64,000 nucleotides of DNA. It comes from Cupriavidus basilensis. Lineage in GTDB: Bacteria > Pseudomonadota > Gammaproteobacteria > Burkholderiales > Burkholderiaceae. This document shows, piece after piece, positions 3,389 through 40,732 of the stretch (positions are counted from its first letter, which is position 1; each line of letters starts with the position of its first letter). The stretch covers positions 3,410,001-3,474,000 of the forward strand of contig NZ_CP010537.1 of NCBI RefSeq assembly GCF_000832305.1. Direction: 5' to 3'. The notes under the pieces were generated by a model. The model did not search any database. It was not told where the DNA came from and worked only from the letters and a program-made list of their open reading frames with translations. The position numbers were made by a program, and so were the translations under genes.

Positions 3389-4026
3389 CCCACCCCCCTG
3401 ATATTCTTGATGACACTCGCATCAAGTTTCTTCCTGACTCCGTGGAGGAGGAACTCTACGGCATTGCTTTCGACTTCCTCGTTCCAGCCGTAGAGGCGCT
3501 CTTCGAGTTCACTACGGGAGAGAATGATGCCGGGCCGGAGCAAGAATTCGCGCAAGAGCGCAAATTCGCGAGCCGATAGCTGACGTTGGATGCCCTGATA
3601 CCAGACCTCGTGACTGGCCTGGTCCAGCAAGAGCGTGCCGTTTCGAAGGATTGGGGAAACCTCTTGGCCTTGCCGTCGCGTGAGTGCGCGGAGTCGGGCC
3701 AGCAACTCCCCGATATGAAACGGCTTCACCAGATAGTCATCCGCGCCGAGGTCCAGGCCAGCAATGCGGTCTTCTACCGCGCTGCGTGCCGTGATAACAA
3801 GGACCGGCACCGCGTTTCCTTGCCTTCGTGCCTCGCGTAGTACCTCGATGCCATCTTTTCCGGGAAGCCCCAGGTCCAGCAGAACCGCCTCGTAGCGCTG
3901 AGCGAATAGAGCCGTAGCGGCCTGATGGCCATCCGTCGTCCAGTCCACCGCATATCCCGCGTCCCTGAGAGTCTGGCATATGGCCTCCCCGATAAGGGAG
4001 TCATCTTCCACCAGTAGCGTTCGCAT
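3364..4026 (-). CDS. OmpR-family response regulator (QseB/PmrA type)
   Basis: A 220-residue protein with a receiver domain (residues 1-115) and a winged-helix DNA-binding domain (125-218). Acidic residues at 8-9, the phosphorylation site Asp51 in AVLLDLGLP and Lys in YLVKPF are all present. The C-terminal domain carries the typical SAREFALL and VRKKL segments. It is divergent from the RND operon, whose promoter region holds two 11-bp-period direct repeats suited to an OmpR-type dimer, so it probably regulates both itself and the efflux operon. It pairs with the overlapping kinase gene downstream. Confidence 0.94.
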   Translation of the reverse strand: MRTLLVEDDSLIGEAICQTLRDAGYAVDWTTDGHQAATALFAQRYEAVLLDLGLPGKDGIEVLREARRQGNAVPVLVITARSAVEDRIAGLDLGADDYLVKPFHIGELLARLRALTRRQGQEVSPILRNGTLLLDQASHEVWYQGIQRQLSAREFALLREFLLRPGIILSRSELEERLYGWNEEVESNAVEFLLHGVRKKLDASVIKNIRGVGWMVPRAE

Positions 4027-4094
4027 CCGCTCCCCAATTCAGTTGGTTGTCCATGCTTGCCCATGCCAGCCCGCGCGCAGCGTGTCAGTGAAGA

Positions 4095-4163
4095 CTTAGC
4101 GGAGCCTTAGCGGCGATTGCCGCATAAGTCACTTTGAAATGAATCTGCTAAGTACCCGCTAAT
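4095..4163. promoter_or_regulatory. Two direct-repeat boxes for the OmpR-family regulator
   Basis: In the 250-base divergent region, CTTAGCGG occurs at 4095-4102 and again at 4106-4113 (CTTAG-N6-CTTAG). The reverse-complementary half site occurs as GCTAA-N6-GCTAA at 4147-4151 and 4158-4162. Both pairs have an 11-bp period, and they are oriented toward opposite genes. This matches the known form of PmrA/QseB-type boxes (two CTTAA-like half sites separated by 6 bp). One pair per divergent promoter is inferred. Confidence 0.6.
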
Positions 4164-4276
4164 TTTCGCCGCCTATCCTCGCCCCCGCCTGTTGCCAATC
4201 ACTATCCCCAGACCAACAGCCATTCACCCCATGGGGGTCTGAATTGGACTGCGGAATCGACTAGAGGAGCCGAGGA

Positions 4277-5734
4277 ATGAATGTCGCAAATGCCACGCTG
4301 ACGGCAAGACCGGGCTGGATGCCCCGGATTCTAGCCTCGTCTCGGGCATGGCTCCTCGTTGTCTGCTGCGCGACCCTGTCAGCTTGCGCGTTCGACCACT
4401 ATGACGCACGCCCAATCTCTGCCAGCGCGATCGTCGACACGATTAACGAGCGTTCGCTTGCCTCGGCGGACTTGCGCGACTTCATCGAGCGGCATGCCAT
4501 GCGCGCAAGCTCGGACTGGCCACCAACCCGCTGGAACCTGGATACGCTAACCCTTGCCGCCCTTTACTACAACGCGGACCTGGACACAGCGCGCGCCAGG
4601 CTGGCGACCGCGCAAGCCAGCATAAAGACCGCCGCGCAGCGCCCGAATCCGTCCCTGCAGTTGCCGTTTCAACGCACCCTGAATCCCAAGGGCGGAGACT
4701 CGCCATGGACACTCGGTATTGCGCTAGACATCCCGATTCAGACTGCCGGCAAGCGCGGCTACCGCATCGACCAGGCTACCCATTTCGCCAGTGCGGCGCG
4801 CCTGGATGTCGCCAATATTGCCTGGAGCGTGCGAAGCCAGCTACGGACACAGCTATTGAATCTGTGGTCTGCTAATGCGCGCACGGATCTCCTCAAGCAG
4901 CAGTTGGAGCTGGACCAACGCATGAATACGATGCTGGAGAAACGCGTCCTCCTCGGCGACGCTTCCGCACGGGAGCTGAATCAGCAGCGCCTGGCTCTCA
5001 TCCAGGCGCAGGCGGACTTGCTGAATGCGCAGCGCCAGACGTCAGCCGCCAGAGTCCTGATTGCCAATGTGCTTGGGCTACGGTCCGGCGCGCTCGATGG
5101 CCTGGATATTGACCTTACGGATTTCGGACGACCTTATGCCTCGCTTCCGGCCCCGGAAATCCGGCTACAGGCCCTGTTGAACCGGGCCGATGTGCTGTCC
5201 GGCCTAGCGCAATATGAAGCCAGTCAAGCCGCGTTGCAGTTGGAGGTCGCCAAGCAATATCCGGACATTCATCTTGGCCCGGGCTATACCTTTGACCAGG
5301 GCTTGCACAAGCTTGGCCTTGACTTTACCAATCTCGTGCTGCCAATCTTCCATCGCAACGAAGGGCCAATCGCGGAGGCACGGGCCCGGCGACTGGAGGC
5401 GGAGGCCCAGGTCAGGCGGCTCGAAGCCCAGGCGCTGGGTGAAACCGATGGCGCCATCACCGCGTATCAAGCCACGCGAAGCATCGTGAAACGGAATGAG
5501 GAGCAGGTCAGCATGCAAGGCCGCCAGTTCCTGGCAGCCCGACGGTCCTTCGAAGTGGGACAAACCGACCGGATGGCGTTGACGCTTGCCGAACGGACCG
5601 AGCTTGCGGCGCGGCTTGCGCTGCAAGATGCCGAATTCCAGATGCAGCAGGCCATCGGTCGGCTGGAAGATGCCATCCAGCGCCCACTCTCCGACCCCGA
5701 TGCGGGCGCCAATCCGAGCCACTGGGTCAAATGA
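4277..5734 (+). CDS. RND efflux outer-membrane factor (CzcC/TolC family)
   Basis: A 485-residue outer-membrane efflux protein. The N-terminus is a lipoprotein-type signal ending near VVCCATLSACAFD, giving a lipobox cysteine at ~37. Two outer-membrane-efflux repeats follow with long amphipathic helices (residues ~85-270 and ~290-475). It would form the trimeric periplasm-to-outside channel for the RND pump encoded two genes downstream. GAGGAGCC precedes the ATG. Its stop overlaps the next start (ATGA), showing operon organisation. It is divergent from the two-component genes. Confidence 0.9.
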   Translation: MNVANATLTARPGWMPRILASSRAWLLVVCCATLSACAFDHYDARPISASAIVDTINERSLASADLRDFIERHAMRASSDWPPTRWNLDTLTLAALYYNADLDTARARLATAQASIKTAAQRPNPSLQLPFQRTLNPKGGDSPWTLGIALDIPIQTAGKRGYRIDQATHFASAARLDVANIAWSVRSQLRTQLLNLWSANARTDLLKQQLELDQRMNTMLEKRVLLGDASARELNQQRLALIQAQADLLNAQRQTSAARVLIANVLGLRSGALDGLDIDLTDFGRPYASLPAPEIRLQALLNRADVLSGLAQYEASQAALQLEVAKQYPDIHLGPGYTFDQGLHKLGLDFTNLVLPIFHRNEGPIAEARARRLEAEAQVRRLEAQALGETDGAITAYQATRSIVKRNEEQVSMQGRQFLAARRSFEVGQTDRMALTLAERTELAARLALQDAEFQMQQAIGRLEDAIQRPLSDPDAGANPSHWVK

Positions 5735-6798
5735 CTATGAGAAGAAAAACGATACTCAAGGGCATCCTGCTCTTGTCGCCAGCGATTCTGGCCGCGCTCG
5801 CGCTTGGCGGATTCCTGCTGAGCAAGGGCGAGCAGGACAAGGAAGCCGAACGCGAGGCGCCCGTCTCAAGCTCGGTCCGCATCACGGTGGCGGATGGCTT
5901 CACTACGCTGATGGTCGACGCCGCCATGCAAGCGCGCAGCGGCTTCCAGGTGGATGCGCTGGCGCCCGCAAGCGCTACGACCGGCCCCGCCGCCTATGGC
6001 ATCGTTCTCGACCTGCAACCCCTCGTCGAACTGGCGAGCCGCCATGCCTCCGGCGTTGCGGACCTGAACGCCACCCAAGCTGCGCTCGACGCGTCGCGCG
6101 CAGACTTTGAGCGACTCCAGACCCTCAACGCAGACGCAAGCAATGTGTCGCTCAAGACCGTGCAAGCAGCGCGCGCAGTGCTCGCTTCGGCGACGGCAAA
6201 GGTCAATGCGGCACGCGTGAGCGTCGCCGCCATCGCCAGCGCAGCCAGGCAACAGTTCGGACCGGCGCTGTCGGCCTGGGCGTCGACACCGGAATCTCCG
6301 GAGCTTGCCCCGTTCGTGGCGCGCCGCGAAGTATTGTTGCGCGTCGTCTTGCCAGCCGGGCCATCGGTAACAGCCCCCGCACTCCTGAAGGTGACGACGG
6401 ATGGTATCCCCGCGTTCGACGCTCGCCTGATTTCGCCGTCGCCCCAGGTCGACCCCGGTATCCAGGGGCAAGCCTACTTCTATCGCGCCGCGGTATCGCT
6501 GGCTACCGGCATGCGCGTGACCGCACACATCCCGGTGTCGTCGGGACAAAAGAACGGCCTGCTGGTGCCCGCCGGCGCCGTGGTCTGGTATGGCGGTCAA
6601 CCCTGGGCCTACGTCCAGTCCGACAGCACACACTTCCAGCGCCGGCCAGTCGACCCGCGCTCGCCACAAGATGGGGACTTTGTCGTCACGGAAGGATTCA
6701 AGCCAGCCGAACGGGTCGTGGTGCGGGGCGCGCAACTTTTGCTTTCCGAGGAATCCCGAGCGCAGCTCGCCAGCCAGCAAGGCAACGACGCACGCTGA
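5731..6798 (+). CDS. RND periplasmic adaptor (CzcB/HlyD-like membrane fusion protein)
   Basis: This 355-residue protein has one N-terminal transmembrane anchor (~9-30), a short barrel-sandwich segment, an alpha-helical hairpin around residues 100-165 (DLNATQAALDASRADFERLQ) and C-terminal beta-barrel and membrane-proximal domains (VPAGAVVWYGGQPWAYVQ). It is somewhat shorter than typical CzcB proteins and shows no His/Met metal-binding extension. The start overlaps the upstream stop by 4 bases and the pump gene begins 6 bases after its stop. The role as linker between channel and pump follows from context and fold. Confidence 0.86.
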   Translation: MTMRRKTILKGILLLSPAILAALALGGFLLSKGEQDKEAEREAPVSSSVRITVADGFTTLMVDAAMQARSGFQVDALAPASATTGPAAYGIVLDLQPLVELASRHASGVADLNATQAALDASRADFERLQTLNADASNVSLKTVQAARAVLASATAKVNAARVSVAAIASAARQQFGPALSAWASTPESPELAPFVARREVLLRVVLPAGPSVTAPALLKVTTDGIPAFDARLISPSPQVDPGIQGQAYFYRAAVSLATGMRVTAHIPVSSGQKNGLLVPAGAVVWYGGQPWAYVQSDSTHFQRRPVDPRSPQDGDFVVTEGFKPAERVVVRGAQLLLSEESRAQLASQQGNDAR

Positions 6799-6804
6799 CC
6801 TGAC

Positions 6805-9800
6805 ATGCTGACTTCCATTGTTGATTTCTCTGTCCGCCTGCGCGGCGTCATCTTTGCGCTCGCCTGCCTGCTGCTCGGCTACGGCGCCTATGCTTTGCTC
6901 CAGAGCAAGCTCGACGTCTTTCCGGAATTCACACCGCCCCTTGTCACCGTCCAGACTGAAGCCCCTGGGCTCTCCGCAGAGCAGGTCGAACTGCTGGTCA
7001 CACAGCGCGTGGAGAACGCCTTGGGCGGCTCGATTGGGCTCGAATCCATGCGGTCCCAATCGATACGGGGGGTATCGGTCGTTACCCTCACGTTCAACGG
7101 CCAGACCGATATCCGCCGCGCCCGGCAGTTGGTGGCGGAGCATCTGGCAACCCTCACGGGCGAGCTGCCAGCGGGAGTACGCGCGCCGAAAATGACCCCA
7201 CTCAGCTCGGCGACCAGCATTGTGCTTGGGATAGGGCTGACGTCGGACACGCGTTCGCCGATGGAGTTGCGCACTTTCGCCGAATGGACGCTAAAACCCC
7301 GGCTGCTGAGTCGTGCCGGGGTCTCGGACGTGAGCATCTATGGCGGCGAAATCAAGCAATACCAGGTCCAGGTCGACCCGCAAAAGCTGGTTCGCCTTGG
7401 CCTATCGCTGCACGACGTGGTCAGCGCGACGCAACGCGCAACAGGCATCCGTGGTGCGGGCGTGCTCGAAACCCCGAACCAGCGCATCGTGCTCAACACC
7501 GTCGGCCAGACCACGACCGCCGAGCAGTTGGGCCAGGTTGTCGTGCTACAGAAGAACGGCGCCTTGGTTCGGCTCGCGGATGTCGGCAATGTCGTACTTG
7601 GCCAGGAATTGCCGGTCAGCGGCGCCAACGTCCAGGGCAAGCCGGGCATCGTGCTGATGGTCAGCAACCAGTTCGGCGCGGATACCGTGTCGGTGACCCG
7701 GAACGTCGAGGCAGCGCTGGCAGCCTTACAGCCAATGCTGGCGGCCAACGGTATCCAACTGCACGCCGACATCTTCAGGCCCGCCAATTTCATCGTCGCC
7801 TCGACCGACCACTTGCGCACGGCGCTGGTTGTGGGGGCGGCGCTGGTGGTCAGCGTCCTGTTCCTCTTCCTCTTCAACGTACGCACCGCCTTCATCTCAG
7901 CCACCGCCATCCCGCTCTCGCTGCTGGCCGCCGTCATGGTATTGCATCACTTTGGCGTCGCGCTGAATACGATGACGCTGGGCGGCTTGGCCATCGCCCT
8001 TGGCGAGCTGGTGGACGATGCCATTATCGACGTCGAGAACATTTACCGTCGCTTGCGCGAAAACCGCCTCTTAGCGATGCCGCTGCCCGCCATCACGGTG
8101 GTTGTCAAGGCATCCACCGAGGTGCGAAGCGCGGTGATATATGCAACATTTACCGTCGCCGCAGTCTTCCTGCCGGTGCTGAGCTTGTCCGGCGTTGCCG
8201 GCAAACTGTTCGCGCCGCTGGGGATGGCCTATATCCTGGCCATCCTGTCATCGCTAGTGGTCGCACTCACGCTGACCCCGGCGCTGTGTTATGCATTGCT
8301 GGCCAACCGTATCAGCGACGCGGAGGAGCCGCGCGTCTACCAGTGGCTCAAGGCCCGTTACGCAGCCATTCTCACCCATGTTGAGCAGCGCTGGATTGCC
8401 GTCGTCGTGGCGTTTGCCGGCCTGGTGCTGGCTACCCTGGCAACGCTACCCTTCTTCAGCACGGCGTTCCTGCCGGAGCTGCGCGAAGGGCATTTCATCG
8501 CCCACATGCAGGCGGCACCGGGCACGTCGTTGCAAGAATCCCTGCGTATCGGGGAACGCGTCAGCCACGCGCTACTGGAGGTGCCGAACATACGGAGCGT
8601 GGCACAACGGGTTGGACGAACCGCGCGCGGCATCGATGTCTTCGGCCCGCAATATAGCGAGTTCGAAATCGACCTGAAGCCTGCCTTGGACGCGGAGGCA
8701 CAGGAACAGACGCTGGCCGATTTGCGGGACAAGATGGCGGGCTTTCCCGGCTTGACCTTTGCGACCGAGACCTTTCTGACCGAACGGGTCCAGGAAACCA
8801 TTTCCGGCTACACGGCACCGGTCATCGTCAACGTGTTCGGCAATGACCTCGATATCCTGGACGGCCTGGCGCGGCAGGTGTCGCGCACGCTCGGTGCCAT
8901 TCCGGGGGCGGCCGAGGTGACGGTACAGTCGCCTCCCGAAATCCCGCAGCTAACCATCCGTCTGCGGCAAGACCAGCTGACCCGCTGGGGCTTTGCACCG
9001 CTGGACGTGATGGAAGCCATTCAGACCGCTTACCAGAGCGCCGAAGTCGCCCAAGTCTATGAGGCAAACGCCGTGTTCAATGTGGCGGTGGTGCTCGGCA
9101 GCGCATCGCGTCGCAGTCCGGCGCAGGTGGGCGAGTTGCCGCTGCGCAATGCCGACGGCGTCATGGTGCCGCTAAGCCGCCTTGCGGACATCACGCAAAC
9201 GACAGGCCGCTACCTCATTCTGCACGAGGGCGGCCAACGGTTGCAGACCGTGACCGCGCATCTCAACGGTCCTTCGCTCGGTCAGTTTGTCAGTGAGGCC
9301 CAACGTCGCATTGCCGCTGACGTGAAGTTTCCGAAGGGCTACTACTTCGCCCTATCGGGCGAGGCGCAGGCCCAGGCGCAAGCACAGCGGGACTTGCTGG
9401 TCTATTTCGCCATTGCGGCCGCCGGCATCGGCCTGCTTGTCTACCTGGCATTGCGCAGTTGGCGCAGCCTGGTCCTGGTCATGGCAAATCTGCCGTTCGC
9501 GCTGGTGGGCGGCGCGCTTACGGTGTTTGCCACGGGCGGACTGCTGTCGCTAGGGTCGATGGTCGGCTTTGTGACCCTGTTCGGCATCACGTTGCGCAAC
9601 TCCATCATGCTCATCTCCCACTACCAGCATCTGGTGCAGGTCGAGGGCCACGCGTGGAATTTGGAGACGGCAACCCTGGGAGCGACCGAGCGGCTGGCCC
9701 CCATTATGATGACAGCGCTCGTTACCGGGCTGGGCCTGTTGCCACTGGCGCTCCAGTCCGGCGAGCCGGGCAACGAGGTGGAAGGGCCGATGGCGATTGT

Positions 9801-9912
9801 CATTCTGGGCGGCCTCTTCACATCGACCGTACTGAATCTCTTGGTACTGCCTACCTTGGCGCTGCGCTTCGGCAAATTTGACCGCGGAGCAAGCGAGAAT
9901 GCAGGCCATTGA
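6805..9912 (+). CDS. CzcA/CusA-type heavy-metal RND efflux pump
   Basis: A 1035-residue inner-membrane proton antiporter with 12 predicted TM segments and two large periplasmic loops. The opening YALLQSKLDVFPEF and VVTLTF are typical of the HME (heavy metal efflux) RND branch. In TM4 the motif is ALGELVDDAIIDVEN (residues 398-412). Compared with CzcA (DFGxxxDGAxxxxEN), the second Asp and the Glu are kept (D404, E411), the first Asp is Ala, and extra acidic residues occur at 401 and 409. The pump is therefore HME-like but not of the CzcA zinc/cobalt motif class; the substrate is uncertain. It is the last gene of the efflux operon. Confidence 0.92.
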   Translation: MLTSIVDFSVRLRGVIFALACLLLGYGAYALLQSKLDVFPEFTPPLVTVQTEAPGLSAEQVELLVTQRVENALGGSIGLESMRSQSIRGVSVVTLTFNGQTDIRRARQLVAEHLATLTGELPAGVRAPKMTPLSSATSIVLGIGLTSDTRSPMELRTFAEWTLKPRLLSRAGVSDVSIYGGEIKQYQVQVDPQKLVRLGLSLHDVVSATQRATGIRGAGVLETPNQRIVLNTVGQTTTAEQLGQVVVLQKNGALVRLADVGNVVLGQELPVSGANVQGKPGIVLMVSNQFGADTVSVTRNVEAALAALQPMLAANGIQLHADIFRPANFIVASTDHLRTALVVGAALVVSVLFLFLFNVRTAFISATAIPLSLLAAVMVLHHFGVALNTMTLGGLAIALGELVDDAIIDVENIYRRLRENRLLAMPLPAITVVVKASTEVRSAVIYATFTVAAVFLPVLSLSGVAGKLFAPLGMAYILAILSSLVVALTLTPALCYALLANRISDAEEPRVYQWLKARYAAILTHVEQRWIAVVVAFAGLVLATLATLPFFSTAFLPELREGHFIAHMQAAPGTSLQESLRIGERVSHALLEVPNIRSVAQRVGRTARGIDVFGPQYSEFEIDLKPALDAEAQEQTLADLRDKMAGFPGLTFATETFLTERVQETISGYTAPVIVNVFGNDLDILDGLARQVSRTLGAIPGAAEVTVQSPPEIPQLTIRLRQDQLTRWGFAPLDVMEAIQTAYQSAEVAQVYEANAVFNVAVVLGSASRRSPAQVGELPLRNADGVMVPLSRLADITQTTGRYLILHEGGQRLQTVTAHLNGPSLGQFVSEAQRRIAADVKFPKGYYFALSGEAQAQAQAQRDLLVYFAIAAAGIGLLVYLALRSWRSLVLVMANLPFALVGGALTVFATGGLLSLGSMVGFVTLFGITLRNSIMLISHYQHLVQVEGHAWNLETATLGATERLAPIMMTALVTGLGLLPLALQSGEPGNEVEGPMAIVILGGLFTSTVLNLLVLPTLALRFGKFDRGASENAGH

Positions 9913-32616: not shown

Positions 32617-33375
32617 TCAAGGCCAGGAAGACCTGTGGTCGCTCTGGACCAAAGAATCCAACGACCCATCCCAATCAGAAAGTTTCGAGTCGACGTCAAT
32701 TGCAAGCTCTGAGAGCACCTCAAGCGACTCGTTGGAAAGCACGCTGTCGCCCTTGAATCCGAAGAGCACCTCATCTCGCCTCACAAGCAAGTCCCGTATT
32801 TCGGTTCTAAAAAGGCGCGTGACCGATTCGATGACGGCATCCACATCCGCATTGCCGGTGTCCAGCACCATGCGGTCCAGCAGTTCAGTCGTTGTTTCGG
32901 TGCTGAGCATCAAATCGCCGGTCACCCAGCTGTTGACCATAAAGAGGCTCTTCGGAAGCCCCTTGGCATCGAAGCCGATTGTCAGCAGATGCCTCGTGCT
33001 GACCGAATGTTCGGCTCCCCCCGTATGTTTTGAGAACACCACTTCTCGCCGCGACCGAAACCGTCGACCCCAAAGTTCGGGGCGCGCAAACAAGTGAATA
33101 TGTCCATGTTCCGAGGTGCCAGGCCGGTCCTCGGGGGAGTGTGAGTGATAGAACCACTGGTACCCGCTCTTCACGTCGATAGCATCTTCTTCCGGATAGT
33201 GCGTCCATTGCCTCGGCGCCTGACCGCGCAACAGGCCACCTAAAAGATGTTCCTCTCGCTGGGCCAGGTCCGCATAGACATTGAGCAAGCGCAAGCCAGC
33301 GACGCGCGCGGCGTCACTGGCCGGACTCGTTGACTGCCGGAGCCAGGCCACGGATATCAGCTCTTGGGGGCGCAT
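32617..33375 (-). CDS. His-rich protein of unknown function, partner of the Cys-rich peptide (DUF6969-like)
   Basis: A ~252-residue soluble protein. I place the start at ATG 33375, overlapping the last codons of the Cys-rich peptide gene by 19 bases; GTG 33351 is an alternative. The most telling segments are GYQWFYHSHSPEDRPGTSEH and EHGHIHLFARPELWG, a dense cluster of His/Glu residues suited to metal binding, and LLTIGFDAKGLPKSLFMVNS. This pattern resembles what I know as DUF6969; that name is from memory and should be confirmed. The overlap and shared promoter imply that it acts on, loads or is co-needed with the secreted peptide. Confidence 0.7.
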   Translation of the reverse strand: MRPQELISVAWLRQSTSPASDAARVAGLRLLNVYADLAQREEHLLGGLLRGQAPRQWTHYPEEDAIDVKSGYQWFYHSHSPEDRPGTSEHGHIHLFARPELWGRRFRSRREVVFSKHTGGAEHSVSTRHLLTIGFDAKGLPKSLFMVNSWVTGDLMLSTETTTELLDRMVLDTGNADVDAVIESVTRLFRTEIRDLLVRRDEVLFGFKGDSVLSNESLEVLSELAIDVDSKLSDWDGSLDSLVQSDHRSSWP

Positions 33376-33652: not shown

Positions 33653-33682
33653 CTAAGAGGGCCCCAGGCGCCAAGCGGGTTC
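33653..33682 (-). promoter_or_regulatory. ECF-type promoter for the Cys-rich peptide operon
   Basis: On the minus strand GAACC (33682-33678), exactly 18 bases, then CTCTTAG (33659-33653). The ATG is 54 bases downstream of the -10 element. The same element pair with the same spacing occurs at 33716 and 35922. Confidence 0.75.
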
Positions 33683-33715
33683 GCGCCATCAAAGAATTTT
33701 TTCTGCGCAGAACGC

Positions 33716-33745
33716 GAACCGTTTTCGCATCAGGTCGCCTCTTAG
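33716..33745 (+). promoter_or_regulatory. ECF-type promoter for the cytochrome c operon
   Basis: GAACC (33716-33720), 18 bases, CTCTTAG (33739-33745). The cytochrome c ATG is at 33775. Back-to-back with the promoter of the Cys-rich peptide operon, the -35 elements facing each other 33 bases apart. Confidence 0.75.
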
Positions 33746-33774
33746 TGGGTGTTCCTCCCACGAAAAGGGTCGCC

Positions 33775-34209
33775 ATGAAAAAACTCACGCTCACCGCGCT
33801 GATGGCGCTGTGTACTGCCTCGGTCCTGTTCTCCCCGACCGCTTCCGCCGAGGGTGATGCGAGTGCGCTGACCGTGCGCCCTGCTGGCTACAAGCCCCGC
33901 GAGGGCGACGCAAAGCTCGGCGAAAGGCTCTTCCACGACCCCAAGCTGTCAACGAACGGGATGTCCTGCGCGACCTGCCACGCCAACCATGCCTCGTATT
34001 CGGACAGTTTTGCGAAGCCCTATCCACACACGGTCGTCATGGCTAGGGACCAACTGGGACGCAAGCAGGTTTACCTGGACGAGATGATTCAGGCCTGCAT
34101 GGTGATGCCCATGGCCGCCAAGCCGCTGCCCTGGGACTCAAAGGAATTGGCGGCGCTGGTCGCCTTCGTTGAACAAGAGCAAAGAACGTTTAAGCCGACG
34201 AAACAGTAA
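33775..34209 (+). CDS. Exported mono-haem cytochrome c
   Basis: A 144-residue protein with a signal peptide (1-24, SPTASA) and one haem site, SCATCHANH (CxxCH near residue 64). LGERLFHDPKLSTNGMSCAT is the opening seen in MauG/cytochrome-c-peroxidase N-terminal domains. Methionines in QACMVMPMAAKPLPW may supply the distal ligand. AAAAGGG precedes ATG 33775. Followed after 10 bases by a thioredoxin-like gene. Its electron partner is unknown; a periplasmic redox role in the cluster is inferred. Confidence 0.88.
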   Translation: MKKLTLTALMALCTASVLFSPTASAEGDASALTVRPAGYKPREGDAKLGERLFHDPKLSTNGMSCATCHANHASYSDSFAKPYPHTVVMARDQLGRKQVYLDEMIQACMVMPMAAKPLPWDSKELAALVAFVEQEQRTFKPTKQ

Positions 34210-34219
34210 AGGAGGTGCT

Positions 34220-34606
34220 ATGAAAATCTTGCGAACAGTCGTTGCGATTGGCCTCACCACTCTGGTTTCGTTGGCCAGGGCCGGCGAAATCCGGCCTTAC
34301 ACACCACAGGTGTTCGACCAACTGACCCACGCGGGCAACCCCGTGGTCGTTGAGGTCAGCGCAACTTGGTGCCCGACCTGCAAGGCACAAAAGCCCGTCA
34401 TCGAAGGCCTCCTGAAGCAGTCCGCCTACCAGGATGTAACGGTGCTGACCGTCGACTTCGACACCAACAAGGCCGCGCTGAAGAAGTTCAAGGTTGGCAT
34501 GCAAAGCACGCTGGTGGCCTTCAAGGGCGCTTCGGAAGTCGGGCGGTCGGTTGGCGATACGACGCCTTCCGGCATCGAAAGCCTCATCAGGAAAACGGTC
34601 AATTGA
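34220..34606 (+). CDS. Exported thioredoxin-like protein
   Basis: A 128-residue protein with AAAGGAGGTGC before ATG 34220. A signal peptide (1-21, VSLARA) is followed by a thioredoxin fold with the active site WCPTC (residues ~47-51). It lacks the canonical cis-proline region in obvious form (STLVAF). It overlaps the CcdA start by one base (TGATG). Thiol reduction in the periplasm fed by CcdA is the likely role, possibly on the Cys-rich peptide or the cytochrome apo-protein. Confidence 0.87.
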   Translation: MKILRTVVAIGLTTLVSLARAGEIRPYTPQVFDQLTHAGNPVVVEVSATWCPTCKAQKPVIEGLLKQSAYQDVTVLTVDFDTNKAALKKFKVGMQSTLVAFKGASEVGRSVGDTTPSGIESLIRKTVN

Positions 34607-35334
34607 TGGAACTCGGTTTCGGCTCCTACGGATTTGGCTTTCTGGCCGGGCTCCTTTCAACGCTGTCGCCTTGCGTCCTGCCTCTTGTTCCCGTCCTGCT
34701 CGGGTCGGCAACAAGTATGCACCCGCGTGCACCACTCGCACTCGCCGGTGGTCTGGCCATTTCCTACGCAACTATCGGGACCCTGCTCGCCTGGGCCGGG
34801 ACGGCCCTGAGCATCGACACCGGTGTTTTTCGTCTTCTGGGGGCGACGACGCTCGCCCTGCTGGGCGTCGTCCTGCTGTCAGGTAGCCTGCAGCAGCGCT
34901 TCGCCACCGCCACGTCGGGCCTGAGCGCCGCTGGCAGCAGCCTGATTTCCCTGGCACAACCTGACGGGCTGTGGGGCCAGTTCGCCATTGGCCTAATGTT
35001 GGGCGTGGTGTGGAGTCCCTGCGTGGGCCCCACCCTTGGTGCGGCTGTCGTGCTTGCCAGCCAGGGTTCGCATTTGCCGCAGGCCGCGCTGCTCATGGGC
35101 GTATTTGGAATCGGCGCGGCCTTACCCGTCGTAGCCTTGGCCTACGTTTCTCGTGGTGCCATGGTGAAAATGCGCGGCAACCTCATGCGGGCGGGAAAGA
35201 CTGGAAAAATTGCGATGGGCGTCATCATGGTGGCCGTCGCCGGGCTTATGCTGAGCGGAACCGACAAGGCCATGGAGGCCTGGCTGGTGGACCATTCCCC
35301 TGCGTGGCTCACCGCATTGACCACGCGTTTCTAA
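34606..35334 (+). CDS. CcdA/DsbD-type thiol electron transporter
   Basis: A 242-residue integral membrane protein with about six TM segments. The two catalytic cysteines occur in the conserved contexts LSTLSPCVLPLVPVLLG (TM1) and GVVWSPCVGPTLGAAVVLAS (TM4), as in CcdA. These shuttle electrons from cytoplasmic thioredoxin to periplasmic thiol partners. It is translationally coupled to the exported thioredoxin directly upstream, its natural partner. Confidence 0.92.
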   Translation: MELGFGSYGFGFLAGLLSTLSPCVLPLVPVLLGSATSMHPRAPLALAGGLAISYATIGTLLAWAGTALSIDTGVFRLLGATTLALLGVVLLSGSLQQRFATATSGLSAAGSSLISLAQPDGLWGQFAIGLMLGVVWSPCVGPTLGAAVVLASQGSHLPQAALLMGVFGIGAALPVVALAYVSRGAMVKMRGNLMRAGKTGKIAMGVIMVAVAGLMLSGTDKAMEAWLVDHSPAWLTALTTRF

Positions 35335-35368
35335 CCCTGATTCCTAAACATCTTCAAAGAGGCTTCCC

Positions 35369-35887
35369 GTGCGCAAACATCCAGTCAGCCTTCGCAGGCT
35401 CGCTACACTCGCTCTCAGCATCGCTTTCCTCAGCGCCGGCACGGCTATGGCAGCCCCGCTGAACGTACAGGCGACCATGGTTCCCAAGGAGCAAATCAAG
35501 CTCGATTTCAAGGACGGCACGGGACATTTCGTGCTGATGGTCAAAAGGGAAGGCACCGCTTCCGGTTCAGGCTTGCTCGATGGAGCACAAATCGTCGAAT
35601 ACGGACGTCACGACATCGTACCCGGCGTTTCCGGTGACCCGAGCGGCTACCTGGTTGCCACCAAGGGCGAGGGCAACGTGGCCTATATCAAGTGGACCGT
35701 CCGCGCCGTCTTCCTGCCCGGCAAGGACGGCAAGCCAGAAATTAACGACAACGGCTTCTGGGAGGTTGTCTCAGGCACCGGCAGCTTCAAGAGCCTGAAA
35801 GGCGCCGGAACCCTGCACATCAAGTCTGCCAATCCTACTGACCGCATCTTCATTCTGGACGGCCAGATGGTTGCCGCGCAGCAGTAA
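35369..35887 (+). CDS. Exported protein of unknown function
   Basis: A 172-residue protein from GTG 35369 with AAAGAGG 6 bases upstream. The signal peptide ends near GTAMA-APL (residue ~28). The mature domain is predicted mostly beta (VLMVKREGTASGSGLLDGAQ, WEVVSGTGSFKSLKGAGTLH), reminiscent of a small lipocalin-like barrel, and contains no cysteine. It is the last gene of the cytochrome/thioredoxin/CcdA operon, 34 bases after CcdA. I do not recognise the family. Confidence 0.72.
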   Translation: MRKHPVSLRRLATLALSIAFLSAGTAMAAPLNVQATMVPKEQIKLDFKDGTGHFVLMVKREGTASGSGLLDGAQIVEYGRHDIVPGVSGDPSGYLVATKGEGNVAYIKWTVRAVFLPGKDGKPEINDNGFWEVVSGTGSFKSLKGAGTLHIKSANPTDRIFILDGQMVAAQQ

Positions 35888-35921
35888 ATGGACGCATGGA
35901 CGCGTTTCTTTCATTCTCGGC

Positions 35922-35951
35922 GAACCGTTTTTCCCGATAGAAGCCTCTTAG
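35922..35951 (+). promoter_or_regulatory. ECF-type promoter for the sigma factor operon
   Basis: GAACC (35922-35926), 18 bases, CTCTTAG (35945-35951), 46 bases before the ATG of the small membrane protein. Identical architecture to the two promoters near 33.7 kb. Upstream of the sigma gene, this suggests positive autoregulation. Confidence 0.78.
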
Positions 35952-35997
35952 TTTTCGAGGACGGTCCTCAACTGCTGACCGATAAAAGGAAATCGCC

Positions 35998-36207
35998 ATG
36001 TTCTATGTGAAGAATGTCCCGAATTGGGAACGCACCCTGCGCGTCATCATGGGCCTGATGAGCCTGGGCTATGCCGTGATGAACTGGGGTGGTTCGAGCT
36101 TGGCCATCGGCCTGGGCATCACGGGCGCGATGCTGGCCATGACCGGCTTGTTCGGCTTTTGTCCCATGTGCGCGATGGTGGGTCGCAAACTGGACAAGAG
36201 GCAGTAG
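35998..36207 (+). CDS. Small DUF2892-type membrane protein
   Basis: A 69-residue protein with AAAAGGA before ATG 35998. NVPNWERTLRVIMGLMSLGY and GLFGFCPMCAMVGRK fit the DUF2892 (YgaP-like C-terminal) family: two TM helices and a C-x-x-C at the end of the second. The sigma factor gene starts 3 bases after its stop. Such proteins often accompany rhodaneses and sulfur-handling genes. The C-x-x-C could sense thiol or metal state; a role in controlling the sigma factor is speculative. Confidence 0.85.
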   Translation: MFYVKNVPNWERTLRVIMGLMSLGYAVMNWGGSSLAIGLGITGAMLAMTGLFGFCPMCAMVGRKLDKRQ

Positions 36208-36209
36208 CC

Positions 36210-36767
36210 ATGGCGGCGAGCGGAATCGAACGTGAAAACCTGATACTGGCCGCGCAGACGGGAGACCCGGCCGCCATCTCCCGTCTGCTGGCTGTCTGTC
36301 AGGCCGATGCGCGGCGCTATGCCTACAAGCACTGCCAGGCCAGCGATGTCGACGATGCCGTACAGGAGTCGCTGCTTATCATCTCGCGCAAGGTCAAAGG
36401 ACTCAAGGCGGCGGCGGCGTTTTCTTCCTGGCTCTTCATGGTCATCAAGCGCGAATGCCGCAGGCTTGAGCGGATGATGTTCAAACACGACCCGCTGCCG
36501 GAGGATATTGCCGAGGAACTGCTGGCCCGCAGAAGTGACGATGCCCTCCGGGTTGACCTCGCCAATGCCCTCGAGTCCCTGCCCGCGCACTATCTGGAAG
36601 TTGTTCTGCTGCGCGATTTCGAAGAATTGACGATTGCCGAGATTGCGCAACGCCTGGGCGAGCCCCATGGCGCCATCAAGAGCCGGTTACATCGCGCACG
36701 GGAATTGGTGCGCGAATACATGCTGGGTCCGGATATCACCCCGCATCCGCCACCCGCTGGGCCGTGA
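36210..36767 (+). CDS. ECF-family RNA polymerase sigma factor
   Basis: A 185-residue protein with sigma-2 (residues ~15-85; DVDDAVQESLLIISRKVKGL, SSWLFMVIKRECRRLER) and sigma-4 (~115-170; LPAHYLEVVLLRDFEELTIA, GEPHGAIKSRLHRARELV). No sigma-3 domain is present. It sits behind a promoter of the GAACC-N18-CTCTTAG type shared by two other operons nearby, so it very likely recognises that motif. No classical anti-sigma gene is adjacent; the flanking small membrane protein and the Cys-rich cytoplasmic protein are candidates. Confidence 0.9.
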   Translation: MAASGIERENLILAAQTGDPAAISRLLAVCQADARRYAYKHCQASDVDDAVQESLLIISRKVKGLKAAAAFSSWLFMVIKRECRRLERMMFKHDPLPEDIAEELLARRSDDALRVDLANALESLPAHYLEVVLLRDFEELTIAEIAQRLGEPHGAIKSRLHRARELVREYMLGPDITPHPPPAGP

Positions 36768-36794
36768 GCAAGCGGAAGACCAGAGGCGAAAAAT

Positions 36795-37058
36795 ATGAGC
36801 ACGCCCCCAACGGATGCAACTACAGTTCAATTGCGTTCGACACTGACCTGTCCGGCGTGTGGCCAGGCCGTCGAACTTGAAATGCCCACAGATGCGTGCC
36901 TCTTCTTTTACGAGTGCGAGGGCTGCCATATGCGGCTTCGTCCGTTGCCTGGCGACTGCTGGGTCTTTTGCAGCTACGGCTCCGTGAAGTGTCCGTCCAT
37001 GCAGAGAGCTCGTCGCTGTTGCAGCGTCAGCGCGATATCAGAGGTGAGGCCGCAGTAA
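36795..37058 (+). CDS. Small cysteine-rich protein (GDCCVxC-like, altered motif)
   Basis: An 87-residue protein without signal peptide. LTCPACGQAVELEMPTDACL and YECEGCHMRL give a zinc-ribbon-like set of CxxC pairs. The following LPGDCWVFCSYGSVKCPSMQ matches the GDCCVxCSYG signature found in small proteins near mercury and metal genes, except that the second Cys of the CC pair is Trp here. The last ~20 residues (ARRCCSVSAISEVRPQ) run into decayed EamA sequence and may not be native. It follows the sigma factor by 27 bases. Confidence 0.7.
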   Translation: MSTPPTDATTVQLRSTLTCPACGQAVELEMPTDACLFFYECEGCHMRLRPLPGDCWVFCSYGSVKCPSMQRARRCCSVSAISEVRPQ

Positions 37059-37659: not shown

Positions 37660-38313
37660 ATGAGAGAACTAAAGAACCACCTGTATGAGCAGGTAGCGCG
37701 CATCGGAAAAGCTATCGCCAGCCCCAAACGATTGGAGTTGATTGAACTCCTGTGCCAAGGGGAAAAGTCTGTCGAGACACTGGCTGTCCAGGCAGAAATC
37801 AGCGTGAAGCTGACGAGTGCGCATCTCAAGGAGCTTCGCAATGCAGGTCTAGTTGAGACCCGCAGGGACGGCAAATATGTGCTGTACCGCCTGGCAAGCA
37901 CCAGCGTTGCTGACCTATGGGTGAACCTGCGGTCGGAAGCCGAAGAGCGGCTGGTGGACTTGCAGGTGGCGCTCGCGTCTATCGTCGACCACAGCGACGA
38001 CTTGGAGGAGCTCGACCGGGCTGCCATCCTGAAGAAGGCCAAGGCTGGGGAAGTACTAATTCTTGACGTGCGGCCAGCCGAGGAATTCGCCGCTGCCCAC
38101 TTGCCGCACGCTCGTTCGTTGCCGTTGAGCGAACTTAAGAAGAAGCTCGCTGCCCTCCCAAAGGACACGCCAGTGGTTGCCTATTGTCGAGGACCCTTCT
38201 GCCTGATGGCCAGGGACGCCGTCAAACTGCTGCGAAACAAGGGCTACCGCGCCTTCCACTTGGCTGATGGGGTAGCCGAGTGGCGCGCGCATGGGCTGCC
38301 TGTAGAGGCGTAG
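37660..38313 (+). CDS. ArsR-family regulator fused to a rhodanese domain
   Basis: A 217-residue two-domain protein. Residues 1-95 are an ArsR winged helix (SPKRLELIELLCQGEKSVET, SVKLTSAHLKELRNAGLVET). Residues ~125-217 are a rhodanese domain (ILDVRPAEEFAAAHLPHARS) with active loop YCRGPFC, the first Cys being the expected persulfide carrier. Such fusions are thought to sense reactive sulfur through the rhodanese. It probably represses its own operon through the overlapping inverted repeat. The downstream DsrE, MBL-fold and MFS genes are the likely targets. Confidence 0.92.
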   Translation: MRELKNHLYEQVARIGKAIASPKRLELIELLCQGEKSVETLAVQAEISVKLTSAHLKELRNAGLVETRRDGKYVLYRLASTSVADLWVNLRSEAEERLVDLQVALASIVDHSDDLEELDRAAILKKAKAGEVLILDVRPAEEFAAAHLPHARSLPLSELKKKLAALPKDTPVVAYCRGPFCLMARDAVKLLRNKGYRAFHLADGVAEWRAHGLPVEA

Positions 38314-38320
38314 ATTGACC

Positions 38321-38671
38321 ATGAAGACTCTTGTCGTACTCAACGATGCTCCATATGGCAACGAACGTACTTACAACGGCACACGGTTGGCAGGGGCACT
38401 AGCTCGCCAGGAAGGCAACGAAGTCAGGGGCTTCCTCATGGGCGACGCGGCATTGGCTGCGCACCGTCACCAGAAGGTGCCAAGCGGCTTCTACAACCTC
38501 GAGGCGATGCTCGGCTCCGTTGTCAGCCACGCCGGTGTCATCGATGTCTGTGGCTCCTGCATGGATGCGCGCGGCATGACGGCGGAAGGCCTTATTGCAG
38601 GCGCTCACCGCAGCAATCTCGACGAGTTGATGCAATGGACCACCTGGTCCGACAAGGCGCTGGTGTTTTGA
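38321..38671 (+). CDS. DsrE-family sulfur-relay protein
   Basis: A 116-residue DsrE/F-like protein from ATG 38321, 8 bases after the regulator. NDAPYGNERTYNGTRLAGAL and VIDVCGSCMDARGM are typical; the two cysteines in CGSC are placed where DsrE-like proteins bind persulfide. It would carry sulfane sulfur between partners in the cytoplasm. It continues the operon to the metallo-beta-lactamase gene 14 bases later. Confidence 0.9.
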   Translation: MKTLVVLNDAPYGNERTYNGTRLAGALARQEGNEVRGFLMGDAALAAHRHQKVPSGFYNLEAMLGSVVSHAGVIDVCGSCMDARGMTAEGLIAGAHRSNLDELMQWTTWSDKALVF

Positions 38672-38684
38672 CAAAGGAGTTCCG

Positions 38685-39440
38685 ATGTTCTTCCGTCAGC
38701 GTCTCGCAGAGAACGCCACTCTTTCCTATTTCTTTGGCTGCGCTGGTATCGGCAAGGCCGTTGCCGTCGACGTGGTTGCCGGTGATGAGGACTGGTTCAT
38801 CGCCGAAGCCAAAAACGCGGGCGTCGTGATTGCCCACGTCATCGACACACATGTGCATGCTGACCACTACTCTGGCAGCCCCGTGCTGGCGCGACGAGTC
38901 GGCGCGCCGTATTACCTGCACGAAAGCAACAAGACCCAGGTCGCGTTCGACTTCGCGCCCCTGACCGATGGACAGCGGCTTGAGGCGGGCAATGTGCTGG
39001 TCGACGTGTTGCACACTCCCGGCCATACACTCGACAGCGTCTGCTTGCTTGTACGCGACCTGCGCCGAGGCGACGAGCCTTGGTTTGTCATCACCGGTGA
39101 CACGCTCTTCGTCGGCGCTGTCGGACGTCCGGACCTCGCTGGTCAAGAGCGAGAGATGGCCGCCCGGTTGTACGACAGCTTGCACCAGAAGCTCCTGACC
39201 CTGCCTGCCGACCTTGAGATTTACCCGGGACACCAGGCCGGTAGCGCCTGTGGCGCGGGGTTGTCTGGGAAGCCCGCATCCACCATCGGATTCGAGAAGC
39301 GCTTCAACCCGATGCTATCCATGTCGCGTGAGGCCTTTGTCGATGCTGTGACTGTCGACATCCCCCCGCAACCGCAAGACATGGCACGCATCATTGAGGC
39401 CAATCGGCATGGCATTGCGCCCGAGGTCGCGTGCCCTTGA
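38685..39440 (+). CDS. MBL-fold hydrolase, persulfide-dioxygenase-like
   Basis: A 251-residue metallo-beta-lactamase-fold protein with AAAGGAG before ATG 38685. Metal ligands are in THVHADHYSG (HxHxDH, residues ~61-66), HTPGHT (~110-115), GDTLFVGAVGR (~141) and YPGHQ (~182). GDTLFVGAVGRPDL is typical of the ETHE1/glyoxalase-II-like group that oxidises glutathione persulfide, but some such proteins are plain thioesterases. The operon partners favour persulfide chemistry. It overlaps the MFS start by 10 bases. Confidence 0.9.
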   Translation: MFFRQRLAENATLSYFFGCAGIGKAVAVDVVAGDEDWFIAEAKNAGVVIAHVIDTHVHADHYSGSPVLARRVGAPYYLHESNKTQVAFDFAPLTDGQRLEAGNVLVDVLHTPGHTLDSVCLLVRDLRRGDEPWFVITGDTLFVGAVGRPDLAGQEREMAARLYDSLHQKLLTLPADLEIYPGHQAGSACGAGLSGKPASTIGFEKRFNPMLSMSREAFVDAVTVDIPPQPQDMARIIEANRHGIAPEVACP

Positions 39441-40732
39441 CCCCCTCTTCGATAGACTTCGGTATCCGCGCCAACCTGGGCCAGGTTCTACAGCAACTGC
39501 TTCAGGTCCTGCTGGTGGGGATGACCATTGGTATGATGCGCACCGTCGTACCGGCCCTGGCCGAGAGCGAGTTCGGTGTACCGCGTGGCTCGTTCATGCT
39601 GCTGGTGGCCTTCGTCGTCGCCTTTGGTTTCGTTAAAGGCGCCATGAACTTTATCGCTGGCCGTCTGGCTGAGCATATTGGCCGCCGGCGTGTGCTGCTC
39701 ATTGGCTGGCTGGTCGCACTGCCGATTCCTCCACTGGTCTATTTCGCTCCAACGTGGGGCTGGATTGTTTTAGCGACCGTCCTGCTAGGCGTCAATCAGG
39801 GCCTGACGTGGTCGATGACACAGACCGCCAAGCTCGACATCACGCGGGCTGACCAGCGTGGCTTAGTCATCGGCCTCAACGAGTTCTCCGGATACATGGG
39901 GGTGGCAGTTGCGGGAATCGTCACTGGGTATGCCGCGTCTTGGCTCGGGCCGAGAAATGGGCTGTTATGGTTCGGCGCCGCAGTGATTGGACTGGCGACG
40001 CTACTCGCCTGGCTAGCGGTAGTGGAGACCATGCCTTGGGCCCATGCCGAGGTCAAGAAACACGCCAAAGGCGCGTCACCGACGATGCTACGCCCGCGCT
40101 ATCCCGCCGGTGTCAGCGAACAGCCCTCCACCTTCGAAATGTTCGCTCTGATGACCTGGCGCGACCGAAGAATGGCCGCATTGTGCCAGGCCGGCCTGGT
40201 GGAAAAATTCGTCGATGCATTGGTCTGGGCCCTCTGGCCGGTCTATCTGCACCAGAAGGGAGTCAGTTTGCCCGGCATCGGCTGGATTGTCAGCGTTTAT
40301 GGATTCACTTGGGGCGGCGCCCAGTTCCTTACCGGCAGCTTTTCTGACAAGGTGGGACGCAGACACCTCAATGTCTGGGGCATGTGGGTGTGCGGAACTG
40401 GCGTGGCCATGCTACCGATGGGGAGTGGCGCGGTTTGGTGGAGTGTTTCTGCTGCGCTCGCCGGACTGGGCATGGCCATGTTGTACCCCAATCTGAGCGC
40501 CGCAGTCGCTGACATCGCGCACCCGAGTTGGCGGGCATCCGCCATCGGTATCTACCGCTTCTGGCGGGACCTTGGCTACGGCATCGGTGCGCTCGGCCTG
40601 GGTGCCGCCGCAGCGCTCGGCGGCAGCGTGGAGAGTGCCTTCTGGTTCGTTGCCGTCGCCATGGGCCTGTCTGGCCTTGTGCTCTACCACTGGGGCGAAG
40701 AAACGCATCCGCGCCTCAACCCTTCCCCCTAA
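39431..40732 (+). CDS. MFS transporter of the sulfur operon
   Basis: A 433-residue 12-TM transporter from GTG 39431, overlapping the MBL gene. MFS loop motifs are GRLAEHIGRRRVLLIGW (residues ~77-93) and SFSDKVGRRHLNVWG in the second half. Its last place in a persulfide operon suggests transport of a sulfur compound such as sulfite or thiosulfate, but nothing in the sequence identifies the substrate. Confidence 0.88.
   Translation: MPLTPSSIDFGIRANLGQVLQQLLQVLLVGMTIGMMRTVVPALAESEFGVPRGSFMLLVAFVVAFGFVKGAMNFIAGRLAEHIGRRRVLLIGWLVALPIPPLVYFAPTWGWIVLATVLLGVNQGLTWSMTQTAKLDITRADQRGLVIGLNEFSGYMGVAVAGIVTGYAASWLGPRNGLLWFGAAVIGLATLLAWLAVVETMPWAHAEVKKHAKGASPTMLRPRYPAGVSEQPSTFEMFALMTWRDRRMAALCQAGLVEKFVDALVWALWPVYLHQKGVSLPGIGWIVSVYGFTWGGAQFLTGSFSDKVGRRHLNVWGMWVCGTGVAMLPMGSGAVWWSVSAALAGLGMAMLYPNLSAAVADIAHPSWRASAIGIYRFWRDLGYGIGALGLGAAAALGGSVESAFWFVAVAMGLSGLVLYHWGEETHPRLNPSP

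Follow-up and report, generated by a model that had tools for sequence, protein, structure and literature searches.

The sigma factor locus and its predicted promoter sites

In the 64,000 bp stretch of Cupriavidus basilensis DNA considered here (the window), a gene for an extracytoplasmic function (ECF) sigma factor lies in a cluster of three operons, each of which has upstream of it the sequence GAACC followed, after exactly 18 bases, by CTCTTAG (Table 1). These three sites precede an operon for a Cys-rich peptide and a DUF6969 protein, an operon for a cytochrome c, a thioredoxin, and a CcdA-type protein, and the operon of the sigma factor itself. The locus as a whole is probably the self-contained regulon of this one ECF sigma factor, with three promoters. 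An earlier sequence-only reading of the window had proposed this arrangement; a pattern scan places the three sites at the positions, strands, and spacing that it gave, and the Pfam and NCBIfam gene calls agree on the operons that follow them.

No other exact pair is present in the window, again as had been claimed, and allowing one mismatch adds a single match at 28244 (+). When the window was shuffled 100 times, the one-mismatch motif was found 0.13 times on average and none of the 100 shuffles reached four. A scan of the whole genome, which the earlier reading had proposed as a check, covered 8,421,483 bases in two contigs with spacings of 17 to 19 bases; the exact pair occurs at these three places only, while the pattern read backward has two matches. 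A longer sequence, GCGAACC-N17-CCTCTTAG, is common to all three sites, and a genome-wide scan for it that tolerated one mismatch found the same three sites, against one match in the backward control. The last base of the motif is 53, 29, and 46 bases from the start codon for promoters 1, 2, and 3, respectively.

Table 1. Features of the sigma factor locus, in window coordinates. Gene families are from Pfam and NCBIfam profile scans; signal peptides and cell location were judged by eye.
Feature	Position	Strand	Remarks
DUF6969 protein	32617..33375	-	PF22308, E 6.6e-51; start codon inferred; no signal peptide
Exported Cys-rich KC-repeat peptide, 80 aa	33357..33599	-	Sec-type signal
Predicted promoter 1	33653..33682	-	Upstream of Cys-rich peptide and DUF6969 genes
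Predicted promoter 2	33716..33745	+	Upstream of cytochrome c, thioredoxin, CcdA, and DUF3224-like genes
Monohaem cytochrome c, SoxA/TsdA-MauG type	33775..34209	+	PF21342 and PF03150 above cut-off; exported
Thioredoxin, WCPTC	34220..34606	+	PF00085; exported
CcdA/DsbD-type membrane thiol electron carrier	34606..35334	+	PF02683, PF13386
DUF3224-like exported protein	35369..35887	+	PF11528, E 8.4e-4, below cut-off
Predicted promoter 3	35922..35951	+	Upstream of DUF2892, sigma factor, and GDCCVxC genes; candidate autoregulation site
DUF2892/YgaP-like small membrane protein, CPMC	35998..36207	+	PF11127, 61.9 bits against a cut-off of 25.3; candidate sensor or anti-sigma factor
ECF sigma factor, 185 aa	36210..36767	+	Pfam, NCBIfam; Cys at 30, 42, and 83
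GDCCVxC protein	36795..37058	+	NF041374; 27 bases past the sigma factor gene

The sigma factor matches PF04542, PF08281, PF04545, and TIGR02937 above their cut-offs and PF04539 below its own, which gives it regions 2 and 4 and no region 3 above cut-off. The Cys-rich peptide has no Pfam or NCBIfam family above its cut-off; 73 relatives were found at E ≤0.001, and 25 were aligned. The GDCCVxC gene is probably the last gene of the sigma factor operon, although it is optional in relatives, being present at 11 of the 80 related loci described below.

The motif at related loci

A search with the sigma factor protein found 1915 relatives at E ≤1e-15, and a scan of genome contigs with it provided 80 related loci (L020-L099), most of them titled as Burkholderiales or other betaproteobacteria. 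Many are from metagenome bins, some are at contig ends, and two, L038 and L039, seem to be nearly identical. A matrix for the motif was built from the matches in 83 loci (L020-L102), where 126 places score above 16 and 128 above 12; in the reversed control the numbers are zero and three, respectively. The core of the motif is fixed by the selection of the instances. At the positions that were not forced, 114 distinct instances keep the G (88%) and the C (95%) before GAA, the C before CTC (90%), and the T after CTCT (89%).

A site scoring above 16 is present at 71 of the 80 loci; whether orthologous clusters keep the motif was a second check that had been proposed. There are 124 such sites, and 120 of these have one of the genes that were searched for within 1.3 kb, the first being DUF2892 or the sigma factor for 66 sites, the Cys-rich peptide or DUF6969 for 23, cytochrome c or thioredoxin for 22, and a bufferin precursor for nine; the remaining four have no searched-for gene. 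The counts were taken in this way because clustering of the open reading frames (ORFs) that follow the sites misnames some antisense or shifted frames (e.g. cluster c12). By locus, a site lies within this distance upstream of DUF2892 or the sigma factor in 66 of the 80. Among 15 loci that were searched for separately (L005-L019), 14 score above 12, with at least two of the 15 (L005 and L009) being repeats of loci used in training. That the three sites of the window are a coincidence is very unlikely, in fact barely credible, since the motif is conserved in related loci and since the three lie within 2.3 kb of one another with none elsewhere in 8.42 Mb, even though the backward pattern does occur twice in that genome.

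In 200 genomes of the family, a strict degenerate form of the pattern has five matches in three genomes, every one at the locus of this sigma factor, and the backward control has none. The sigma factor gene itself is found in 16 of the 200 (E ≤1e-20), and these include all three genomes with the strict pattern, for which the chance is about 4e-4 by our own arithmetic. In 23 genomes of relatives, among which G105 and G201 appear to be the same genome, there are 40 pattern matches in 16 genomes, and 35 of the 40 are at the sigma factor locus by position. Five matches are away from it, of which three were inspected and the two in G211 were left out. Genome G208 has a divergent pair of sites (G208:C94:15050-15193; L108, L136) in which one arm precedes thioredoxin and CcdA genes, the thioredoxin being identified by eye in a shifted frame. 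In G205 a distal site, on a contig other than that of the sigma factor, precedes an orthologue of the DUF3224-like gene that stands alone.

Probable recognition of the motif and autoregulation

The comparison makes it very probable that the sigma factor of the locus reads the motif. The strict pattern is confined to those of the 200 family genomes that carry the sigma factor, and motif-like sites accompany it down to about 40% identity. Another sigma factor might read the sites instead, or they might be operators for a repressor or an activator. The tie between sigma factor and motif rests on sequence comparison, and the initial search with the sigma factor gave 25 candidate places in the host genome, one of them at E ≤1e-20, which leaves some room for a different reader. 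The two-box layout with its fixed spacing, and the restriction of the strict pattern to sigma-bearing genomes, make such a reader most improbable. Autoregulation of the sigma factor operon is strongly supported by the position of the sites upstream of DUF2892 and the sigma factor in relatives, and the sites before other operons at many related loci likewise support a regulon of the extent seen in the window. On these three matters (recognition, autoregulation, and a self-contained regulon) the comparison is in agreement with the earlier reading.

Several observations weigh against these conclusions. Nine of the 80 loci have no site; six of these (L076, L094, and L096-L099) lie at the start of a contig or match the sigma factor only in part, but this is not so for L067 and L091. 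A further locus without a site above 16, L049, carries a variant of the motif with a spacing of 19. There is some circularity in the site counts: the matrix scored the very loci that had served to train it, and the genes were in part chosen because they follow sites. Both the strict pattern and that used for the 23 genomes were tuned on the same family. The strict form is missing from 13 of the 16 sigma-bearing family genomes. In the set of 23, all of which were picked for carrying a relative of the sigma factor, seven genomes have no match, and the backward control has 10 matches to set against the 40. The second arm of the divergent pair in G208 faces a LysR-type gene, which is no known member of the regulon. 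Finally, the C or T of the -35 box has no clear covariation with residues of the sigma factor, the best mutual information being 0.28, in columns that do not cluster; of the eight highest-ranking columns, two (119 and 153) are in region 4.

A mechanism can be proposed, which past promoter recognition is drawn from gene families and neighbours. The sigma factor would bind GCGAA[C/T]C-N17-CCTCTTAG as its -35 and -10 boxes and would transcribe its own operon, a positive feedback, together with the two neighbouring operons, no other exact site being present in the genome. Stress would give active sigma factor, its own operon would be amplified, and the other two would then be switched on. The Cys-repeat peptide would be exported, possibly following some action of DUF6969 on it, and would bind a soft metal or buffer periplasmic thiols. 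CcdA would hand electrons to thioredoxin, which can keep cysteines reduced, and the cytochrome c may remove electrons. Together the products may form a defence of the envelope against thiol or metal stress.

Control of the sigma factor

The earlier reading had noted that no standard anti-sigma gene is adjacent. This holds in the window, where Pfam and NCBIfam find no anti-sigma domain (ZAS, NrsF/RsqA, and the like) in the neighbours of the sigma factor. It holds also for 135 same-strand ORFs flanking the sigma factor at 74 loci, where there is no anti-sigma factor among the 25 most frequent of the 76 Pfam families, the list being already down to single-member families before the other 51 are reached. 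Some of the 135 are not genes, because the ORFs were chosen mechanically. As substitutes, the DUF2892 membrane protein and the downstream GDCCVxC protein had been suggested. The latter can be set aside, since it is absent from most related loci and has no ZAS pattern by eye; the former stands as a possibility. Control through DUF2892 and control through the cysteines of the sigma factor itself are both possible, though neither can be called probable.

As an anti-sigma factor, the DUF2892 protein, with its CPxC motif, would hold the sigma factor at the membrane and free it on thiol or metal stress. This is consistent with the presence of DUF2892 within 500 bases upstream or 400 bases downstream of the sigma factor in 57 of the 73 loci with enough sequence, and with three others (L065, L075, and L091) having a GCPxC membrane protein downstream instead. 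The YgaP-like transmembrane domain is the commonest family in the flanking ORFs (26 of 135), followed by DsbD-type carriers (10), and DUF2892 is the first gene after 56 of the 124 sites. Against this, and to be added to the difficulties listed above, 13 of the 73 loci, among them L026, L045, L052, and L068, have neither DUF2892 nor a divergent form of it nearby, and YgaP-like transmembrane domains occur without a sigma factor too. A literature search for DUF2892 with an ECF sigma factor found no paper, within a scope that left out most subscription journals.

The alternative is that the sigma factor senses the stress itself, Cys42 and Cys83, and perhaps Cys30, forming an internal metal or disulfide switch, in which case an anti-sigma factor would not be needed. 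These are its only cysteines, and they are within or next to region 2. Cys42 and Cys83 are invariant in all 75 related loci that cover them, in all 15 loci of the family search (39.5-89% identity), and in the best 120 of the 1915 proteins; Cys30 is present in 71, 13, and 120 of the same sets, which overlap, the 120 proteins being the closest relatives. The cysteines could nevertheless be structural. The resemblance to the CorE type of metal-sensing sigma factor, in which direct sensing of metal is possible and, as here, no anti-sigma factor is seen, is incomplete, since CorE has a Cys-rich C-terminal domain, as described in the available part of PMC8999054, and the window sigma factor has none. 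Whichever route applies, a compact pair of sigma factor and promoter, with three exact sites in an 8.4 Mb genome, should be useful for studying the control of ECF sigma factors that have no recognizable anti-sigma factor.

DUF6969 and the Cys-repeat peptides

The DUF6969 protein has six histidines (H59, H77, H79, H92, H94, and H129) and three aspartates (D64, D67, and D154) that are invariant in 53 aligned sequences, and the conserved histidines suggest a metal site. DUF6969 is found in 30 of 369 genomes of the class, including the host. The other 29 loci were set beside 11 control stretches, taken from 11 of the genomes that hold them. A script that required four repeated Cys units found a peptide upstream on the same strand at 15 of the 29 loci and one spurious ORF in the 11 controls, and it also flagged some ORFs elsewhere in the DUF6969 loci that are not Cys-repeat peptides. 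Reading the upstream ORFs by eye at a lower threshold added 10, to give 25 of 29, the controls being judged by the script threshold only. The repeats are of the types NPCAAK, GGNPCAPSAR, SPCGL, and CCG, in peptides with a signal or a single transmembrane segment by eye; some have few units (two in L183 and L185, about three in L189 and L191). No such peptide is present at L172, L174, L193, and L195, the contig being short in L172 and L195. A thioredoxin or CcdA match is near some of the 29 loci, and a matrix scan of the 2.5-3.6 kb stretches around them found no site scoring above 4.

In 15 further loci from the family, a Cys-repeat peptide is beside DUF6969 in 13, judged partly by eye, although these are few independent cases because 12 of the 15 are from one genus. 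The 12 genomes concerned have no match to the sigma factor at E ≤1e-20. Across both sets (L138-L195 and L207-L221) the gene before DUF6969 is mostly one for a Cys-repeat peptide that is exported or membrane-anchored; this holds for many genera and away from the motif of this sigma factor. None of the Cys-repeat peptides that were checked has a family above cut-off.

This association suggests that DUF6969 may mature the Cys-rich peptide or load it with metal, and it is conceivable, although not the favoured expectation, that it acts on the peptide before export. The peptide itself is a probable soft-metal ligand or thiol buffer. In three cases a Cys-repeat domain is fused to a monohaem cytochrome c (L080:6671-7402, which is Cys-rich, and L167:4760-5530 and L168:7757-8449, with NPCA repeats), a hint that peptide and cytochrome c may work together. 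Homology of DUF6969 to MNIO, DUF2063, or DoxX was considered and was not detected by hhalign, with a profile that is shallow (effective number of sequences, Neff, 2.4); compared to the PDB, the profile found two chains only, with E of 0.4 and 1.2, too weak for use. A literature search for DUF6969 and PF22308, of the same scope as that for DUF2892, found no paper.

A first functional context is thus available for DUF6969: it is often beside an exported Cys-repeat peptide, and at some loci thioredoxin, CcdA, and cytochrome c are near as well. Its exchange with bufferin operons, which buffer copper and share the promoter motif, is described below and adds to this context. DUF6969 and its peptides are the part of the system that may prove newer. 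An unlikely but wider proposal would be that DUF6969 is the first of a class of maturases or metal-loading proteins that is new and does not depend on MNIO, and that serves exported peptides with KC, NPCA, GGNPCAPSAR, and SPCGL repeats, run at this locus by an ECF sigma factor that has no anti-sigma factor and senses metal or thiol state through the invariant cysteines in or near region 2. The bufferin link, the DUF6969 pattern, and the invariant cysteines were absent from the earlier reading, of which the observation of three motif sites stands.

Exchange with bufferin operons and the inducing stress

In some relatives, gene clustering and Pfam show the same motif before a bufferin operon with DUF2282, MNIO, DUF2063, and DoxX genes. 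MNIO is present at 12 of the 80 related loci and DUF6969 at 26, with both at two only (L048 and L063). The host genome has one DUF6969 and no match to MNIO (PF05114), which is found in two of 14 control genomes. Bufferins are described, in the portion of PMC12452194 that is available, as copper-chelating peptides that help growth under copper stress, and related thiooxazole peptides bind copper according to the accessible text of PMC12668002. The occurrence of the motif before these operons suggests that the regulon is one of envelope metal or thiol stress, and on balance the inducing stress may well be copper-like or thiol-oxidizing.

It is a weakness of this view that copper comes into it solely by way of the exchange with bufferin operons, while sulfur-related neighbours suggest something else. 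The regulon might answer sulfide, persulfide, or thiol oxidation and not copper, a less likely explanation. In its favour are the YgaP-like and GDCCVxC proteins of the locus, the thiol chemistry of the peptide, thioredoxin, and CcdA, and a nearby gene for an ArsR-rhodanese protein and one of the metallo-beta-lactamase fold (GloB/Blh-like, below cut-off). The ArsR-rhodanese gene and those after it have no exact motif, however, and relatives of ArsR-rhodanese are at few of the related loci, while copper is favoured by the bufferin operons that share the motif.

The region after the regulon (37660-40732) contains the ArsR-rhodanese gene, a small DsrE-like protein identified by eye, the metallo-beta-lactamase-fold hydrolase, and a transporter of the major facilitator superfamily (MFS), and is possibly a separate sulfur operon. 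At 2036-9912, about 23 kb from the sigma factor locus, a two-component system is beside a CusA/CzcA-like efflux operon of the RND type (TIGR00914, below cut-off).

Comparison with known systems

The closest parallels are with systems in which an ECF sigma factor is adjacent to a peptide operon. In Cupriavidus metallidurans, RpoQ and RsqA are beside the gigPABT operon, which is of the DUF2282, MNIO, DUF2063, and DoxX type, as are the bufferin operons of the relatives of the window locus; gig is induced by copper and gold, and in the available parts of the two reports (PMC10304878, PMC11022561) its control by RpoQ is not established. The sigma factor next to gig, which is assigned as RpoQ from its position, is only 28% identical to that of the window over 149 aligned residues and does not have Cys30, Cys42, or Cys83. 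Unlike the window locus, it has a predicted membrane anti-sigma factor, RsqA, in the section of PMC10304878 that could be consulted. The best matrix score in the 12 kb gig region is 1.5, so that no such motif is there. On the low identity and the absence of the motif, membership of the window locus in the RpoQ/gig type was rejected.

In Haemophilus, RpoE2 with its partner HrsE, a ZAS-type anti-sigma factor of 67 aa, regulates a cluster of COG3767, MNIO, DUF2063, and DoxX-like genes, and both this pair and Neisseria SigE (ECF group 13) tie an ECF sigma factor to a periplasmic peptide cluster and to envelope oxidative stress, as far as the accessible part of PMC7907618 describes them. The window locus shares this general plan, but no small ZAS-type anti-sigma factor is seen at it, and the partner of the peptide is DUF6969, not MNIO. 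An exported Cys-containing peptide with a partner gene is likewise common to the window and to the bufferins and captophorins, which are MNIO-modified, copper-binding members of the ribosomally synthesized and post-translationally modified peptides (RiPPs). The window peptide, however, has no DUF2282 match (E ≤1) and has KC repeats with no EGKCG, and its genome has no MNIO, so it was not assigned to the bufferins or captophorins, which would have a DUF2282/EGKCG precursor and MNIO in the genome.

Distribution and possible transfer of the sigma factor

A match to the sigma factor is present in three of the 22 genomes of the genus in the sample, including the host. The window sigma factor is 89% identical to a copy in another genus and 56% identical to copies in its own, a pattern which suggests horizontal transfer. 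It also has matches in 36 plasmid records, of which three regions were inspected. Those from Cupriavidus KK10 and Novosphingobium have both the site and DUF2892, while that from a Klebsiella plasmid (L100) has a homologue 68% identical to the window sigma factor with a match to neither. In this enterobacterial plasmid the homologue has carboxymuconolactone decarboxylase and haloacid dehalogenase genes as neighbours. An MFS transporter adjoins the sigma factor gene in L065, L075, and L077, and one that is of the same type by eye is present in the window at 726-1949, more than 30 kb away from the sigma factor.

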